A stretch of DNA of 64,000 nt from assembly GCF_900109545.1 (NCBI RefSeq), contig NZ_FOAP01000002.1, positions 248,001 to 312,000 of the forward strand, read 5' to 3'. How positions within the stretch are numbered: the stretch's first letter is position 1; every line of letters starts with the position of its first letter. This document shows, piece by piece, positions 6,797 to 15,904 of this stretch. The DNA is from Stigmatella aurantiaca. Lineage in GTDB: Bacteria; Myxococcota; Myxococcia; Myxococcales; Myxococcaceae. Position numbers and translations under genes: made by a program. The notes below the pieces were generated by a model. The model saw only the letters and a program-made list of their open reading frames with translations. It did not search any database and was not told the DNA's origin.

Positions 6797-8239
6797 TCAA
6801 AGGGTGGAGTGCGGCGAGTACGGCTCGGGCATGCTCCGGGTCCTGCTGCCGAACCGGGTGCGGATGACCGCCCCGAAGGCCACGAGCACCGCCAAGGCCA
6901 TCACCAGCCAGCCGAGCACCGGAATGGCCCCCACGCCCAGCAGCACGAGCAATCCCAGTGCCAGCACGGCCGCCTGCGTCTTCCGGCCGCGCAGGAAGGG
7001 CAGCCGCAGTCCAATCTCGCTGGCCACGGCCGCCAGGCCCAGGGCCGCGGCCAGGGGGATGACGAGCCACATCAACACCAGCACCGGGATGCCCACCAGG
7101 GTGATGGCCAGAATCACGGAGATGGGGATGAGGGCCACGGCGCCCAGGAGCCCCGTCAGGCCACTGTTGACGGGCTGCGCCTTGATTTCCGCCGCCAGTT
7201 CCTTCATGCGCGTGGGGAAGAGGAGCTGTCCCAGGAACCCCAGCCCGAAGAGCGCCGCGAACTTGAGGAGGAAGGCCGGGAAGCCGCCGCCCGAGTCGTC
7301 ATCCTCCCCGGTGGCCTCGGACCGCTCCGAGTCCGCCTCTTCCGAGCGCTTGAACTCCTTCTGGAGGCTGTCCTTGACCTCTCCGAGCACCATGCTGCCC
7401 AGGGACGTGCCCTCCATGGACTCGATGTCGCCCTCGACATGGGCGCCCTCGGCCTGGACGACCTGCCCGCCGATGGCCGAGGCCTCGCCTTCCACCCGGG
7501 CGCCCGGGTGCAGGGTGACGGTGCCCCCGAAGGCATGGACGTCCCCATCCACCGAGCCGAAGACGTCCAGGTTGCCGCCGAAGACGACCGCGTCCTTCTC
7601 GACGTGCCCCCGCACCACCATGTTGCCGCCGTAGACGACGGCGTTGTCCACGCTCTCGCCCTCTTTGACTTCGAGGGACTGGCCCCGGGCCACCACGTCC
7701 TGGTCGCCGCGGGAGCGGCGCTGGGCCTTGCGCATCTCGTCCCGGATCCGCTTGCGGATCTCCCGGGGCGACGGCCCCTCGGACGGCGCCTCGGGGAGCG
7801 CGGGCGGAGAGACGGCCGCGACGGGCGGCGCGGGAACCGGCAGGGGAGCGGTGTCCCCGGTGGCCTCCTCCAGCTCCTCGGCCTCCTCGGCGGCGCGCCG
7901 CTCCGCGTCCGTCATGGGCCGCAGGGTGTAGATGGAGTTGTCCTGGCGCAGGCGCAGCGAGTAGGTCCGCGCGATGGTCTTCAGGGCCTGGTCGGCGGTG
8001 ATGCCCCGGAGGTGGACCTCCACGGCGGTGTCCAGGTTGCCCGTGGCGACCACGTTGAGCCCGCCCTGCTCGGCGATCTGCTTGAGCGCATCGCGGAGCG
8101 TGCCGCGGAAGTTCACGTCAATGGGCTTGGAGGCGGGCGCCTGGGCCGCGGGGGCGGCATCCGGCGCGGCCAGGGCCAGGGGGGCACCGAGCAGCAGGGA
8201 GGGCAGCAGCAGGTGGGAAGCGATCTTCATGGGGGACAC
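6797..8239 (-). CDS. Exported STN-domain / polymer-forming (bactofilin-like) membrane protein
   Basis: 480-aa envelope protein of unusual architecture. A signal peptide (to about residue 25, ...LALAAPDA) is followed by an STN-type domain (residues ~38-107: VNFRGTLRDALKQIAEQ... YTLRP) as found in secretins and TonB receptors. A Pro-rich linker and a charged segment come next, then a right-handed beta-helix-like repeat of G/V/A turns (NAVVYGGNMVVRG, DAVVFGGNLDVFG, VHAFGGTV) like bactofilin-type polymer-forming domains. An acidic linker and about four hydrophobic helices (residues ~325-460) end the protein. Start is GTG 8239, immediately after the anti-sigma gene's TGA; MKI at 8230 is an alternative. 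Third gene of the ECF operon, so a probable envelope-stress effector or structural target (inference). Confidence 0.78.
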   Translation of the reverse strand: MSPMKIASHLLLPSLLLGAPLALAAPDAAPAAQAPASKPIDVNFRGTLRDALKQIAEQGGLNVVATGNLDTAVEVHLRGITADQALKTIARTYSLRLRQDNSIYTLRPMTDAERRAAEEAEELEEATGDTAPLPVPAPPVAAVSPPALPEAPSEGPSPREIRKRIRDEMRKAQRRSRGDQDVVARGQSLEVKEGESVDNAVVYGGNMVVRGHVEKDAVVFGGNLDVFGSVDGDVHAFGGTVTLHPGARVEGEASAIGGQVVQAEGAHVEGDIESMEGTSLGSMVLGEVKDSLQKEFKRSEEADSERSEATGEDDDSGGGFPAFLLKFAALFGLGFLGQLLFPTRMKELAAEIKAQPVNSGLTGLLGAVALIPISVILAITLVGIPVLVLMWLVIPLAAALGLAAVASEIGLRLPFLRGRKTQAAVLALGLLVLLGVGAIPVLGWLVMALAVLVAFGAVIRTRFGSRTRSMPEPYSPHSTL

Positions 8240-8746
8240 TCACGCTTCGGTCAGGGAGGGAGGGGGGCCCGCGAGCCGCTTGAGCCCGAACAGGCAGACA
8301 GAGAGCACCACGAGGAGGATGGCGGTGATGGGGCCCGCCGCGATGTTCCAAAGCGCGCTTCCACCATTGGCAAGATCCAAGGCGAGCGCCTTTCCATCCG
8401 AGACCAGGGACGCCAGGGCGAGGCCCAGCCGCGACAGGGCCCGGTCATTGGAGATCAACAACCCCAGCCCCACCGAGAGCGAGACGGCCAGGATGCTCAC
8501 CCCCGCCCAGAGCTCGCGCCGCAGGGGAGGGGGCGCGGTGGCCACCCGGGCCATCACGTTGACGACCAGAGAGGGGGGCGGCAGCGGGTCCGCCAGCCGG
8601 TAGAGATCCTTCTCGAGCTGGCGGTGCTCCTCCAGCACGGCGCTGCACAGGGCACAGGCGGCGGCATGCTCCAGCGAGGGCCCTTCGCCGAGCTCCAGCT
8701 CGGTGAACAGCACTTCCAACTCAGGGCACTGAGACGTGGGAGTCAT
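8240..8746 (-). CDS. Zinc-finger anti-sigma factor, membrane bound
   Basis: 168-aa probable anti-sigma factor for the adjacent ECF sigma. The N-terminal cytoplasmic part carries an H-x3-C-x2-C zinc motif (LEHAAACALC), the hallmark of zinc-binding anti-sigma proteins. Two hydrophobic stretches follow (residues ~80-100 and ~138-155). The ATG overlaps the sigma factor stop by 4 nt (ATGA), implying translational coupling and matched stoichiometry. By family analogy it holds the sigma factor inactive at the inner membrane until an envelope signal relieves it. The downstream STN/bactofilin-like gene starts directly after this stop. Confidence 0.82.
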   Translation of the reverse strand: MTPTSQCPELEVLFTELELGEGPSLEHAAACALCSAVLEEHRQLEKDLYRLADPLPPPSLVVNVMARVATAPPPLRRELWAGVSILAVSLSVGLGLLISNDRALSRLGLALASLVSDGKALALDLANGGSALWNIAAGPITAILLVVLSVCLFGLKRLAGPPPSLTEA

Positions 8747-9309
8747 GTGAGCGCCTCCGTGGGCATCCGCTTGCGCAGCTTCTCCCGCGCCCGGAACAGG
8801 CGCGCCATGATGGTACCGGGAGCACAGCCCATGATCTGGGCGATCTCCTTCGTGGTGCGCTTCTGGACGTAGTAGAGCGCGAGCACCTCCCGGTCCTCCA
8901 CGGACAGGGTGGCCATCGCCTCCTCGAGCGACTGACGCTCCTGGCGCGCGATGGCCCCCTCTTCCAGGGAGGCCTCCCCGCTGGGGAGCACTTCCTTCAT
9001 GGGCTCCAGCTCCTCGGTGCGCACCTTGGTGCGCCGCCGGAGCAGATCCAGGCAGAGGTTGCGGGTGATGGCCATCACCCACACATCGAACGGGCGGGAG
9101 TCGTCGTAGCGGTGCAGGTTCTGGTAGGCGCGCAGGAAGGCCTCCTGCGCCACCTCGGCGGCCTCGGCCTCGCTGTTGAGCAGGCGCAGCGCCAGGCCGT
9201 ACACGGCGCGCTGAACGCCGCGCACCAGGGCCTCGAAGGCGTTGGGGTCCCCCCGGCGGGCGGCCTGCACGTCCGCCTTCCAGGGGAGCGCAGGGGCCTC
9301 CTCAGCCAT
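8743..9309 (-). CDS. ECF RNA polymerase sigma factor
   Basis: 188-aa extracytoplasmic-function sigma factor. Region 2 is clear (AVYGLALRLLNSEAEAAEVA, then AFLRAYQNLHRYDD and FDVWVMAITRNLCLDLLRRR), and region 4 is the DNA-binding helix-turn-helix (LSVEDREVLALYYVQKRTT followed by KEIAQIMGCAPGTIMARLFR). No extra C-terminal domain is present. The start at 9309 (MAEEAPAL) is chosen because domain similarity begins just after it; the frame stays open upstream and a GTG 18-19 codons earlier is possible. First gene of sigma - anti-sigma - envelope protein operon; autoregulation is usual in such systems. Confidence 0.92.
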   Translation of the reverse strand: MAEEAPALPWKADVQAARRGDPNAFEALVRGVQRAVYGLALRLLNSEAEAAEVAQEAFLRAYQNLHRYDDSRPFDVWVMAITRNLCLDLLRRRTKVRTEELEPMKEVLPSGEASLEEGAIARQERQSLEEAMATLSVEDREVLALYYVQKRTTKEIAQIMGCAPGTIMARLFRAREKLRKRMPTEALT

Positions 9310-9414
9310 CAGGGAACCGATGGCCAGGGGGATGTCGCCGAAGGGATGCAGAGCGTAAGCGGTCACGCCCTGTTCTACGTGGCCCGGAGAACCCCATTGC
9401 ACCCCCACTCCGCA

Positions 9415-11128: not shown

Positions 11129-12775
11129 GTGACCCAAGTTTCTGCTTCTCCTTCCCCGCCCAAGTCCCTGAAGGGGCCGCGCCTGTCCGGCATGTTCGCC
11201 GACGGCTCGCTCGGGGAGTTCCCGCTCAGCGCCAAGACGACGCTGGGACGGCATCCGGCCAACACCCTGCGCTTGGTGGACCGGGAAGTCTCCAAGGAGC
11301 ACGCCGTCATCGAGCAGCACGGCCGGGACTTCATCGTCCGGGACCTGGACTCCTCCAACGGCACCTTCGTGAACGGCCGCCGCATCAAGGAGATGCGGCT
11401 GAAGGACGGGGACGAAATCACCCTGGGGGGCTCCAAGTTCACCTTCCACGGGGGCGATGCGCCCTCCTCCATCCCTTCGGCGCCCGCGGGCGTCACCGTG
11501 GTGGCCAACCCGCGCTCCATCCCCGCGTTCCTGGCGCAGATGGACCAGGGGCCGCAGAACTTCCGCCCCGCGGACGAGCTGGGCGACATGGAGGCGCTGC
11601 GCCGGGACTACGAGAAGCTGCGCATCGCGCACGAGTTCCACCGCCAGGTGAGCCTGGCGGGCACCCAGCAGGAGCTGTTCGATCAGATCATCCGCGTGGC
11701 CTTCCAGCTCTTGCCCGCGGACAACGGCGTCATCCTCACCCCGGGCGCGGACGGCGAGTTCACGGCCGTCACGGTGCACCACCGGCAGGGCAAGGTGATG
11801 AACGTGATGGTGTCCGACACGGTGCTGCGCCGGGTGGTGGAGACGGGCAAGGCGGTGCTCACGGCGGATGCCATCATCGACGAGCGCTTCTCGGCCGCCG
11901 AGAGCATCGTCGCCCAGGGCATCCGCTCCGCCATGGCGGTGCCACTCACCATCAACGGCACCGTCAAGGCGGTGCTGTTCCTGGACAGCCGCCAGCGCAT
12001 CAACGCCTTCTCCGAGAACGACCTGGCCATCCTGTCGGGCATCGCCGCCCAGGCGGGCATCGCCCTGGAGAACGCGGCGCTGGCCGAGCAGATCCGCACC
12101 GAGGCCGTCACCCGCGCCGAGCTCAGCCGCTTCCTGTCCAAGGCGGTGGCCGACGCGGTGATCAAGGGCGAGACGGAGGACCTGGGCCAGAGCCGGCTCA
12201 CCGAGGTGTCGTGCCTGTTCGCCGACATCCGGGGCTTCACCACGCTGGCGGAGAATGACTCGCCGCAGGAAATCGTGGAGATGCTCAACGAGTTCTTCAC
12301 CGCCATGGCCAACGTGGTGTTCCGCCACGAGGGCAACCTGGACAAGTTCATCGGCGACTGCGTGATGGCGGTCTGGGGGCCCCCCTTGTCTCATCCGGAT
12401 GATCCGGCGCGCGCGCTGCAGGCCGCCCTGGAGATGCAGGACGCGGTGGACGACCTGAACGAGCAGCGCAAGGCCAAGGGCCGCCAGCCCATCCAGGTGG
12501 GCATCGGCGTGAACACCGGCCAGGCCGTCGTGGGCTACATGGGGAGCCTGGAGCGCCACGAGTTCACCGCCATCGGCGACACCGTCAACACGGCCTCGCG
12601 GCTGTGTGGCCTGGCGCGGGGCGGCGAGGTGCTCGCCACGGAGACGACGGTGAGCAAGGCGGGCCAGGGCTTCTTCGCGGAGGCGCTGCCCGTCGCGCAG
12701 GTGAAGGGCAAGGAGAAGGGCGTCCCGACCTTCCGGGTCACCGGTTCCGAGCGCACGATCGTCCGCGACACATGA
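11129..12775 (+). CDS. FHA-GAF class III adenylate cyclase
   Basis: 548-aa signalling protein. FHA domain at residues ~20-105 (TTLGRHPANTLRLVD, SKEHAVIEQHGRD, DLDSSNGTFVNGRRI) should bind phosphothreonine. A GAF domain spans ~170-330. The class III cyclase domain is at ~355-545. It has metal-binding Asp366 (FADIRGFTT) and Asp410 (KFIGDCVMAVWG), adenine-specifying Lys406 and Asp484 (AIGDTVNTASRL), and transition-state Asn488/Arg491 region, so adenylate cyclase activity is expected. No membrane segment. Start is GTG 11129 with GAGG about 9 nt upstream. Its stop overlaps the kinase gene by 4 nt, so the FHA may read that kinase's phosphorylation (inference). Confidence 0.92.
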   Translation: MTQVSASPSPPKSLKGPRLSGMFADGSLGEFPLSAKTTLGRHPANTLRLVDREVSKEHAVIEQHGRDFIVRDLDSSNGTFVNGRRIKEMRLKDGDEITLGGSKFTFHGGDAPSSIPSAPAGVTVVANPRSIPAFLAQMDQGPQNFRPADELGDMEALRRDYEKLRIAHEFHRQVSLAGTQQELFDQIIRVAFQLLPADNGVILTPGADGEFTAVTVHHRQGKVMNVMVSDTVLRRVVETGKAVLTADAIIDERFSAAESIVAQGIRSAMAVPLTINGTVKAVLFLDSRQRINAFSENDLAILSGIAAQAGIALENAALAEQIRTEAVTRAELSRFLSKAVADAVIKGETEDLGQSRLTEVSCLFADIRGFTTLAENDSPQEIVEMLNEFFTAMANVVFRHEGNLDKFIGDCVMAVWGPPLSHPDDPARALQAALEMQDAVDDLNEQRKAKGRQPIQVGIGVNTGQAVVGYMGSLERHEFTAIGDTVNTASRLCGLARGGEVLATETTVSKAGQGFFAEALPVAQVKGKEKGVPTFRVTGSERTIVRDT

Positions 12776-14853
12776 TTGCCCAGCCCTGTCCCAACTGTGG
12801 CCGCACGCATGACGTCGGCGTGTACGTGACGGGCCAGCGCATGCTGTGCCAGTGCGGCATCCGCTTCGACGTACGCCGCGGGGATGCCGTTGCCGCCGCC
12901 GCGGCCGCCGCCATGCCCTACGAGGCCCGGGGAGGGGACACCACCGTGGGACCGCCCCGGCGCGGCGTGGCCTCCCAGGCCCAGCAGCCGGTGGCCGCGG
13001 ACATGGTGGGGGCCACGGTGCTGCGCGGCTCCCACCCGGACTCCGGGCGCGGCGAGGCCCCCTTGCCTCCGGCCGGCCCCCACGCCGAGCACCCGGTGGA
13101 GCTGCCGGGCTTCGAGCTGCTGCGGGTGATTGGCCGGGGGGGCATGGGCGAGGTGTGGCTCGCCCAGCAGCAGTCGCTCAAGCGCACGGTGGCGGTGAAG
13201 CTCCTGCCGCCCCGGCTGGCCAAGGACGCGGAGTTCGTCTCCCGGTTCGAGAAGGAGGCCACGGCGCTCGCGGCCCTCAGCCACCCGAACATCATCCAGA
13301 TCTTCGACCGGGGCGTGGCCGGGGAGCACTACTACTTCGTGATGGAGTACGTGGAGGGCCGCTCCCTGCGCGATGCGCTGGGGCTGAGCCGGCTGCCCTT
13401 CCAGCAGAGCCTGCGCATCATCCGCCAGGTGGCGAGCGCCATCGAGTACGCGCACGACCAGGGCATCATCCACCGCGACCTGAAGCCCGAGAACATCCTC
13501 CTGGATGCGCGCGGGCACGTGAAGGTGGCGGACTTTGGCCTCGCGGGCATCCGGCGCCCCGGCTCCGAGCAGCACCTCACGGCGACCTCCGTGGCCATGG
13601 GGACGCTCAACTACATGGCCCCCGAGCAGCGCCGGGACGCGAAGAACGTGGACCGGCGCGCGGACCTGTTCTCGCTGGGGGTGATGTTCTACGAGCTGCT
13701 CACCGGCGATGTGCCCGTGGGGCGCTTCCGGCTGCCCTCCGAGCGGATCGAGGAGCTGGACCCGCGCGTGGACGCGGTGGTGGAGCGGCTGCTGGAGAAC
13801 GAGCCCGAGGCGCGCTACGCCACCGCCGGCGAGGTGTGCGCCGCGCTGGATCCGCTGATCGACTCCTCCTCGGGCACCACGCCCCTTCCGGGCAACACGC
13901 CCGTGCCCTTCCGGTCCTCGCGCACCACACGTCCCACCCGTGGGAGCCTCCTGTCGCAGCGGCTCGACGCGGGCTGGACCAAGGTACGCAAGGGCGTGTC
14001 CGTGGTGGGCAGCCTCATGCTCCTGGGCTACGCGGTGCGCGCCTTCGTCGGGCCGGTGGACCTGCAAGTGGGCGACGTCACCATCGGTACCTCGGGCATC
14101 ACCTTGAAGCCGGACCCGAAGCCGTGGCCCGCGAACACCGATGACGAGCTGTTCGTCTCCTCCAAGCTGGAGCTGCTGGAGCTGCCCGGGAGCCTCTCGC
14201 GCCTGTCGATGGACTTCGTGCCGGGCACGGAGGAGCTGAACGCCTGGTCGGGCCAGTGGAAGCTGAAGGACGGAAGGCTGGAGGTGCTCCAGGGCGGCAG
14301 CGACATGGGGATCAGCGACCGCTTCCGGCCCCGCACGTACGTGGCGCAGCGCTACTTCTCCAGCAACGACTTCTCGGCCGAAGTCGACATGTCGGTGATG
14401 CCCCTGGGCCCCGAGTACCCGGACGAGCCCGATGCGCAACACTTCGGCGAGCTGACGTTCCGCATCAAGGATCTCCAGGTGTCCGCGTTCGCCATCCCCG
14501 GGGTGGGCATGCGCCTGTCCTGGCGCTACCTGCTGGAGGACGGCCAGGAGATCGTCGGCAACAGCGCCCAGGACCTGGAGAACCTCACCGCCGATGAGAT
14601 GCCCGTGCCCGCCCTGGGCTCGTTCCGCGTGCGCCTGACGATGAAGCGGCGCAAGAACGGGGTGATGGTGGAGGGCTTCGTCAACAACCGGCGCTTCGCC
14701 TACAAGATGCTGCCGGGACTGGAAGACCGGGTGGGCAAGGTGGCCCTGGGCTGCCGCAACCTGGCCTGTACCTTCGACAAGCTCTCCGTGCAGGGGCTCC
14801 TGGTGGAACGGCCGAGGAACCGGCCCCAGCAAGCCGTTGGCGCCCAGGAGTGA
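12772..14853 (+). CDS. Membrane-anchored Ser/Thr protein kinase with zinc ribbon and extracytoplasmic domain
   Basis: 693-aa Hanks-type kinase. Residues 1-30 form a zinc-ribbon-like motif (CPNCGRTHD ... CQCG). The kinase domain (~115-375) has IGRGGMGEVW, Lys143 (VAVKLL), catalytic Asp236 (HRDLKPEN), Asp254 of DFG (VADFGLAG) and the GTLNYMAPEQ activation segment, so it should be active. A single membrane helix lies near residues 409-427. About 265 residues follow it, rich in beta-strands with the look of a jelly-roll/concanavalin-type domain (WSGQWKLKDGRLEVLQGG, FRVRLTMKRRKNGV), predicted on the outer face. The ATG overlaps the cyclase stop by 4 nt. Ligand unknown. Confidence 0.92.
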   Translation: MIAQPCPNCGRTHDVGVYVTGQRMLCQCGIRFDVRRGDAVAAAAAAAMPYEARGGDTTVGPPRRGVASQAQQPVAADMVGATVLRGSHPDSGRGEAPLPPAGPHAEHPVELPGFELLRVIGRGGMGEVWLAQQQSLKRTVAVKLLPPRLAKDAEFVSRFEKEATALAALSHPNIIQIFDRGVAGEHYYFVMEYVEGRSLRDALGLSRLPFQQSLRIIRQVASAIEYAHDQGIIHRDLKPENILLDARGHVKVADFGLAGIRRPGSEQHLTATSVAMGTLNYMAPEQRRDAKNVDRRADLFSLGVMFYELLTGDVPVGRFRLPSERIEELDPRVDAVVERLLENEPEARYATAGEVCAALDPLIDSSSGTTPLPGNTPVPFRSSRTTRPTRGSLLSQRLDAGWTKVRKGVSVVGSLMLLGYAVRAFVGPVDLQVGDVTIGTSGITLKPDPKPWPANTDDELFVSSKLELLELPGSLSRLSMDFVPGTEELNAWSGQWKLKDGRLEVLQGGSDMGISDRFRPRTYVAQRYFSSNDFSAEVDMSVMPLGPEYPDEPDAQHFGELTFRIKDLQVSAFAIPGVGMRLSWRYLLEDGQEIVGNSAQDLENLTADEMPVPALGSFRVRLTMKRRKNGVMVEGFVNNRRFAYKMLPGLEDRVGKVALGCRNLACTFDKLSVQGLLVERPRNRPQQAVGAQE

Positions 14854-15001: not shown

Positions 15002-15904
15002 ATGGATGTGCGGATGTTGCTGGCGCCGGTGTACGCGGCAGCCCTGAGTGCGCTGGTCGTGGCGGCCTTCTCTTTCGGGAGGAAGGACGCGCAGGCGTTC
15101 ATGCCTCGCTGGCCGCTCATGTGGTTCGGCCTGCTGGCCACCGTGTGCCTGCTGTTGCTGACGGACACCGTGCCCTCAGTGGCGTTCCTGTCCGGGGCCG
15201 CGGTCAGCCAGGGCCTGGGGTTCGTCCTGCTGGCCGGGGCGGCGGCGCTCGCCCTGCTGGGCTCCCGGGCCCGGCTGCGCGCCGACACCCTCCGGGGCAC
15301 CGCGCCCAAGAGCCTGGATGAGGCCATCCAGGAGCTTCGGGCCGGCGGCTCGCCGGGTTGGGGCGTCTACCGGGGCCGCCTGGGGGCAAGCGAGCAAGTG
15401 ACGTCCCCCAGCGGCGTGGTGTGCGCCTTCTACGATGCCGAGCTCCGCTCGGTGGGCGACCAGGGCCGCAAGGGGGCACTGATTTCCCAGGATCGCGGCT
15501 ATGCCCTCGTCATCACCCTGCGCGGGGAGCGCTCGGAGGCGGCGGTGAGCTTCGCCCCATCCACGACGATGGCCCCGGTGCGCGTGCTGCGCTGCCAGAC
15601 GGATCCCCGGCTGGTGGAGCCCGAGGCGGGGGAGCTGGCCCAGGGGCAGCCCGTGGAGGAGGTGCTCTCCTACGAGCGCGTGGGGAAGCTCGGCGAGACG
15701 TGCCTGGTGGTGGGAGAGCTGCAGCGGGGCCCGTCGCCCGGCTCCTACGTGCTGCGCGGCCGGCAGGGCGGGCCCGCCATGCTGGTGCTGGGCAACGAGA
15801 CCCAGGGCACGGGCCATGAGCTGGCGCGCAAGGCCTGGAGCTTCTTCGCGGCAGCGGGGGCCGTGTCGGTGGCGGCGGCTTTCGTTCTCTCTCGCACCTT
15901 ATAA
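15002..15904 (+). CDS. Membrane protein with GIDE/BAM-like domain
   Basis: 300-aa membrane protein. Three hydrophobic helices occupy residues ~5-85, then a soluble beta-rich domain, then a terminal helix near residues 278-297. The soluble part has the pattern of the GIDE/MUL1 beside-a-membrane domain: a GVYRGRLG strand, SPSGVVCAFYDAEL, then GETCLVVGELQRG and VLRGRQGGPAMLV before the last helix. In mitochondrial MUL1 this domain precedes a RING finger; none is present here. The family resemblance is my reading of the pattern and is not certain. Start ATG 15002 follows a G-rich AAGGG site. It lies on the kinase strand 148 bp downstream. Confidence 0.7.
   Translation: MDVRMLLAPVYAAALSALVVAAFSFGRKDAQAFMPRWPLMWFGLLATVCLLLLTDTVPSVAFLSGAAVSQGLGFVLLAGAAALALLGSRARLRADTLRGTAPKSLDEAIQELRAGGSPGWGVYRGRLGASEQVTSPSGVVCAFYDAELRSVGDQGRKGALISQDRGYALVITLRGERSEAAVSFAPSTTMAPVRVLRCQTDPRLVEPEAGELAQGQPVEEVLSYERVGKLGETCLVVGELQRGPSPGSYVLRGRQGGPAMLVLGNETQGTGHELARKAWSFFAAAGAVSVAAAFVLSRTL

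Follow-up and report, generated by a model that had tools for sequence, protein, structure and literature searches.

Do an adenylate cyclase and a membrane serine/threonine (Ser/Thr) kinase encoded by overlapping genes in the myxobacterium Stigmatella aurantiaca form one signalling system, and could the kinase carry an outside signal to the synthesis of cyclic AMP (cAMP)? The question is raised by a stretch of 64,000 nucleotides (contig NZ_FOAP01000002.1, positions 248,001 to 312,000; hereafter the window, in whose numbering all positions without a locus name are given) of this genome of 9.37 Mb, which has Hyalangium versicolor among its nearest relatives. On the + strand, the gene at 11129..12775 encodes a protein of 548 residues with FHA, GAF and class III adenylate cyclase domains and no transmembrane (TM) segment, and the gene at 12772..14853 encodes a membrane Ser/Thr kinase of 693 residues. 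A first-pass annotation, made from the letters alone, had claimed that the two genes share an ATGA; both reading frames were recovered at these coordinates, and the sequence itself places the overlap of stop and start codons at 12772..12775 (+). The GTG start of the cyclase gene is backed by sister genomes, which have ATG at this position (MTQ...). The true start of the kinase gene is 12772, the GTG at 12604 in the list of open reading frames being a mechanical upstream start.

Conservation and co-inheritance of the gene pair

The first-pass annotation had set the conservation of the pair in other genomes as a check beforehand, and the outcome favoured it. An order-level sample of 145 genomes was searched and orthologues of both genes were found. 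Within the family the cyclase is present in 95 genomes, and in 90 of them the kinase lies directly downstream on the same strand; among the five exceptions, two end at a contig edge and three have lost the kinase. When individual loci were read, the pair turned up in most of the order's other families that were sampled, among them f2, f6 and f7. Profile matches from across the phylum, whose flanks were then read, added 14 outer loci from other families, nearly all of other classes (L156, in f10, is from the same class but another order), where the cyclase is immediately followed by a kinase that is 43-62% identical in the kinase domain; 12 of these 14 cyclases carry an FHA domain. Pairing was surveyed within the Myxococcota, and beyond the phylum only by a scan of named genomes with exact peptide seeds (five loci).

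When the kinase start is anchored on the N-terminal zinc ribbon, its distance from the cyclase stop is at most 60 bp in 42 of 50 pairs, and in 19 the two genes overlap; the large intergenic gaps of some genera are mostly an artefact of an overlooked variable N-terminus. Chance adjacency is ruled out by such conserved pairing. Retained synteny alone calls for more caution, since in many of the order's families the cyclase also has its divergent neighbour truD beside it. However, truD is absent from the outer loci except L156, so the link between kinase and cyclase mostly outlasts local gene order.

Phylogenies of both proteins, calculated as quick trees and with no bootstrap, point in the same direction. 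All paired kinases, from the order and from the outer families, form one clade in the kinase-domain tree (SH-aLRT 100), which excludes 22 of the 23 kinases sampled from the window's own genome and includes one unpaired paralogue (L184). All paired cyclases likewise form one clade (support 87) that leaves outside the genome's own FHA-GAF-cyclase paralogues and also takes in seven unpaired cyclases from other classes. Subgroups correspond between the two trees. Since the pairing is so strongly conserved, a shared function is well supported, and kinase and cyclase very probably act together in signalling, as a single unit. The evolutionary evidence that they are specific partners is unusually strong; the locus presents a conserved linkage of an FHA protein with a Ser/Thr kinase, for which FHA-dependent phosphorylation is putative.

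Some members of the set deserve separate mention. The paralogue L184 (G000:C9:228355-229134) matches the window's kinase at 54% in the kinase domain and has no adjoining cyclase; it has a TM-like stretch and a C-terminal domain with a similar final Cys pair (GCIEGTC), no zinc ribbon was found in it, and it is the second match in many genomes of the family. Seven loci of f11 hold the pair (L161, L163, L164, L165, L170, L182 and L183); five of their cyclases have an FHA domain, in most cases preceded by an N-terminal zinc ribbon, and five of the seven loci have a further, divergent Ser/Thr kinase that flanks the cyclase on its opposite side. The kinase gene looks broken in two genomes, through either sequencing error or decay: it is split into two frames in L087 (G100) and has an in-frame TAG in G070.

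Domains and residues of the two proteins

The cyclase gene encodes an FHA domain at residues 37-100 (11237..11428, +; Pfam PF00498, 1.7e-20), a GAF domain at residues 181-313 (11669..12067, +; PF01590, 1.5e-17) and a class III catalytic domain at residues 356-530 (12194..12718, +; PF00211, 6e-28), in agreement with the earlier claim of an FHA domain joined to a complete adenylate cyclase. In the FHA domain the phosphothreonine contacts R41, S55, H58 and N77, together with G40, are invariant in all 63 cyclase orthologues of the order, down to about 43% identity. The catalytic residues are intact to the same extent: D366 and D410 (metal), K406 and T480 (adenine) and N487 (transition state) are found in 63 of 63, and R491 (transition state) in 62 of 63; the catalytic residues are also kept in 14 of 14 cyclases from other classes. 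Adenylate cyclases, CyaB (3r5g) included, are the nearest solved structures, and the K406/T480 pair indicates ATP as the substrate. By residue criteria, then, the protein is a class III adenylate cyclase predicted to produce cAMP, and its FHA domain, with the GR, SxxH and N contact residues, is predicted to bind phosphothreonine. The NKFDE motif, which would suggest a cyclic-nucleotide sensor, was not seen when the GAF sequence was read by eye.

The first 32 residues of the kinase contain a zinc ribbon that the first-pass annotation did not mention (CPNC...CQCGIRF, residues 6-32; 12787..12867, +), recognised by motif search and by comparison with kinases of other classes. It is present in 52 of the 54 paired kinases scanned and is N-terminal also in paired kinases of other classes. 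The Hanks-type kinase domain follows (13111..13866, +; Pfam Pkinase match at residues 114-317), and the description of an active-looking kinase holds: the VAVK lysine K143, HRDLKPEN, DFG and APE are intact, and K143, D236, N241, D254 and E285 are conserved among aligned orthologues. Its nearest solved structure is mycobacterial PknB, with whose activation-loop TxT (T171/T173) the window's T270 (13579-13581, +) and T272 (13585-13587, +) align; T270 is found in 53 of 53 aligned kinases, and position 272 is occupied by T or S in 50 of 53. The protein thus qualifies by its residues as a Hanks-type Ser/Thr kinase, predicted to be active. Conservation of the catalytic and phosphothreonine-contact residues makes both enzymes and the FHA domain look functional, and pseudo-enzymes are ruled out. 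Membership of the PASTA kinases (PknB/Stk1) was rejected: the match to the NF033483 model is confined to the kinase domain and scores 281.9 bits against a cut-off of 450 bits, and the outside domain is a beta-sandwich.

A TM helix at residues 408-426 (13993..14049, +) was predicted from hydropathy and positive-inside bias; long kinase forms have a single TM in 40 of 41 cases, and on average its cytoplasmic flank carries the greater number of positive charges. The region beyond it (14047..14850, +) gave a confident all-beta AlphaFold2 (AF2) model (pLDDT 90.8), a concanavalin-like sandwich with the Cys pair C661/C666. This pair is an invariant C-x4-C near the end of the domain, which most of the long paired kinases from other classes share, and together with the biased TM helix it fits an exported domain. 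Fold matches of the model reach Z 15.5-16.0 over 153-177 residues, with a root mean square deviation (rmsd) of 2.8-3.3 and 7-12% identity; among them are mouse galactocerebrosidase (VIA-align Z 16.0, 172 residues, rmsd 2.9), a GH16 glucanase (Z 15.7, 171 residues, rmsd 2.9) and CBM66 (Z 15.5, 153 residues, rmsd 2.8). On the model, the domain is predicted to adopt a concanavalin-like, CBM66-type jelly-roll beta-sandwich fold.

No Pfam family matched the outside domain. The locus also suggests an extracytoplasmic sensor domain not yet catalogued. The GH16 catalytic motif ExDx(x)E is absent from 35 of 36 outside domains, the window's included, so a GH16 glycoside hydrolase is ruled out. From the fold, combined with the missing motif, a sugar or envelope ligand is a reasonable guess and no more. 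The beta-rich extracytoplasmic domain proposed in the first-pass annotation is therefore upheld for the window by a confident model; as a general property of the paired kinases it is not, since in some lineages the outside domain or the TM is missing.

A proposed relay from kinase to cAMP

We consider that a receptor kinase acting on an FHA-cyclase, as a two-protein module widely retained in the Myxococcota, has a somewhat better than even chance of being correct. The membrane kinase would expose its lectin-like beta-sandwich outside the cytoplasmic membrane and keep its kinase domain inside; binding of a signal would bring about self-association and phosphorylation of T270/T272 in the activation loop, as for T171/T173 of PknB. 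The soluble cyclase would then dock through its FHA domain on a phosphothreonine of the activated kinase and would probably be phosphorylated itself, with T123 in the FHA-GAF linker as a candidate site, and docking or phosphorylation would change cAMP output through the coiled helix between GAF and cyclase domains. Docking or phosphorylation of the FHA-cyclase by the kinase is, we infer, the most economical reading, while the sensing of a ligand, autophosphorylation of the kinase, docking through FHA and phosphorylation of the cyclase are each presumed steps, as is the sign of their effect.

Several observations weigh against this relay. Kinase and cyclase genes lie on different contigs in f5, and the kinase is not beside the cyclase in f4, in one f6 genome and in G040. 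In f2 and g23 there are short kinase forms that have a TM but lack the outside domain, and in f6 and f17 paired forms without a TM; moreover, two paired cyclases of f11, in another class (L182 and L183), have lost the FHA domain yet remain paired. Neither the outside sensor nor the FHA domain is thus indispensable to the pairing. Of the pathway claimed in the first-pass annotation, from an outside signal through phosphorylation to cAMP, the coupling of the two genes is strongly conserved, but the sensor and the FHA domain are dispensable for pairing in some lineages. The FHA residues, in turn, are still invariant in L079, L092 and L093, where the adjacent kinase has been lost, which indicates that the FHA domain has another use or another kinase. 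Since the genome has about 154 kinase matches, besides 50 FHA and 20 cyclase matches, other kinases could provide the phosphothreonine.

These same facts would suit an FHA domain that serves as a general phosphothreonine reader for any kinase of the cell, the operon merely co-expressing the two proteins with no direct relay: kinases and FHA domains are abundant, and the FHA domain is intact where the adjacent kinase is gone and missing from two cyclases that are paired. However, such a reader would not lead one to expect that a single kinase clade is the partner across classes, nor that its link with the cyclase mostly outlives the flanking gene order, and we regard it as improbable.

The linker between FHA and GAF domains bears on another possibility. 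It is disordered, of about 50 residues and variable in sequence and length, yet it keeps a hydrophobic-T-hydrophobic-hydrophobic motif, which in the window is GVTVVA (11489..11506, +) with T123 at 11495-11497, a candidate phosphosite or FHA ligand. In a cis switch, a variant that follows GarA/OdhI, the kinase would phosphorylate T123 and the FHA domain of the same or the partner chain would bind it, locking or releasing the cyclase dimer, so that FHA would not dock on the kinase. Although the rest of the linker varies, the motif is conserved across the phylum, its T being present in 61 of 77 cyclases, and both paired cyclases without FHA have A or S at this position (Fisher P 0.04), although these two are sister sequences and the change represents at most one or two events. 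The cis switch would also account for FHA domains kept after kinase loss, if other kinases act. However, T123 is also missing from several FHA-containing lineages (f2, g23 and one in f10), the linker model is of low confidence, and the motif may be a structural strand. We hold this switch to be rather unlikely. T123 may still be proposed, with low confidence, as a candidate phospho-switch and the first site to test.

The pairing by itself gives no direction, and soluble, sensor-less kinase forms exist; cAMP or the cyclase might accordingly regulate the kinase, which would phosphorylate other targets. An FHA domain on the cyclase and a sensor on the kinase make the direction from kinase to cyclase the natural one, however, and we give the opposite or feedback direction very little chance.

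The relay from kinase to cyclase was also considered against the rest of the genome. Of its 20 cyclases, nine have a kinase domain no more than 2 kb away, where 1.24 would be expected; several of the nine are kinase-cyclase fusions, and two further FHA-cyclases adjoin kinases. Kinase-cyclase coupling is therefore a recurrent feature in these bacteria; this favours the relay and at the same time lowers its singularity. One such locus (L176:1922-5743; G000:C4, about 258.4-262.2 kb) encodes a kinase-receiver-cyclase fusion of 722 residues and, 3 bp on, a 551-residue FHA-GAF-cyclase; another (L177:2383-7435; G000:C20) encodes a third FHA-GAF-cyclase (704 residues) followed by a Ser/Thr kinase of 963 residues.

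As for the other genes of the window, a membrane protein without a Pfam match, which may resemble GIDE-like membrane proteins, is encoded downstream of the kinase at 15002-15904 and is kept beside it across much of the family. The gene at 6797-8239 (-) encodes in a single chain weak matches to STN (secretin/TonB N-terminus) and bactofilin, and an ECF sigma factor gene lies near it at 8743-9408.

Comparison with known systems

The closest parallels are PknH-EmbR and PknF-Rv1747 of Mycobacterium tuberculosis, the PknF gene adjoining Rv1747. As in the window, an FHA effector is combined with a Hanks-type membrane kinase with an intact activation loop; here, in contrast, the effector is an adenylate cyclase, a zinc ribbon and a concanavalin-like domain on the outside are part of the kinase, and the genes overlap or nearly overlap across many lineages. 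FHA-dependent phosphorylation of EmbR and Rv1747 by their partner kinases has been reported (cited in PMC6213207). In type VI secretion, the kinase PpkA likewise phosphorylates Fha1, the FHA protein of the same system (PMC6213207), but there the output is a secretion machine and not cAMP.

Clustering of FHA genes with kinases, and the kinase-cyclase fusion Pkn2, were noted in 2005 (PMC1262709). Pkn2, from Myxococcus xanthus and thus from the same bacterial group, and the TOMM kinase/cyclase (TIGR03903) also tie a Ser/Thr kinase to a cyclase domain, but they are single-chain fusions, whereas here there are two proteins and an FHA domain. At the specificity site, Glu is present in the cyclase of Pkn2 (PMC1262709) and Lys in that of the window. 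Membership of the TOMM fusions was rejected, TIGR03903 giving 137.9 and 31.5 bits on the two separate proteins against a cut-off of 705.75. CyaA and CyaB of M. xanthus are also myxobacterial adenylyl cyclases, linked to osmosensing and cAMP signalling (PMC7643160); they are receptor-type, whereas the window's cyclase is soluble and it is the kinase that carries the sensor.

FHA-containing cyclases exist also in cyanobacteria, such as Synechocystis Cya1, in which FHA is joined to a class III cyclase; we know of no kinase pair of this kind for them. The first-pass annotation had supposed a kinase-to-cyclase relay to be new, which is plausible in so far as no description of an FHA-cyclase/kinase pair was found in the open-access literature; the pair is nevertheless a phylum-wide variant, since FHA-effector/kinase pairs and kinase-cyclase fusions were already known.

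Few of the many myxobacterial kinases, FHA proteins and cyclases have known partners, and this locus identifies one kinase-effector pair by inheritance, conserved widely enough for a core regulator; it also offers a direct test of Ser/Thr phosphorylation controlling cAMP in bacteria. We tentatively suggest, at somewhat less than even chances, an ancestral Myxococcota receptor in which a lectin-like domain would act through a Ser/Thr kinase on a separate cyclase via FHA, with the linker threonine as the switch. If true, it would be a bacterial relay from receptor kinase to cAMP, unlike the two-component and receptor-cyclase designs.

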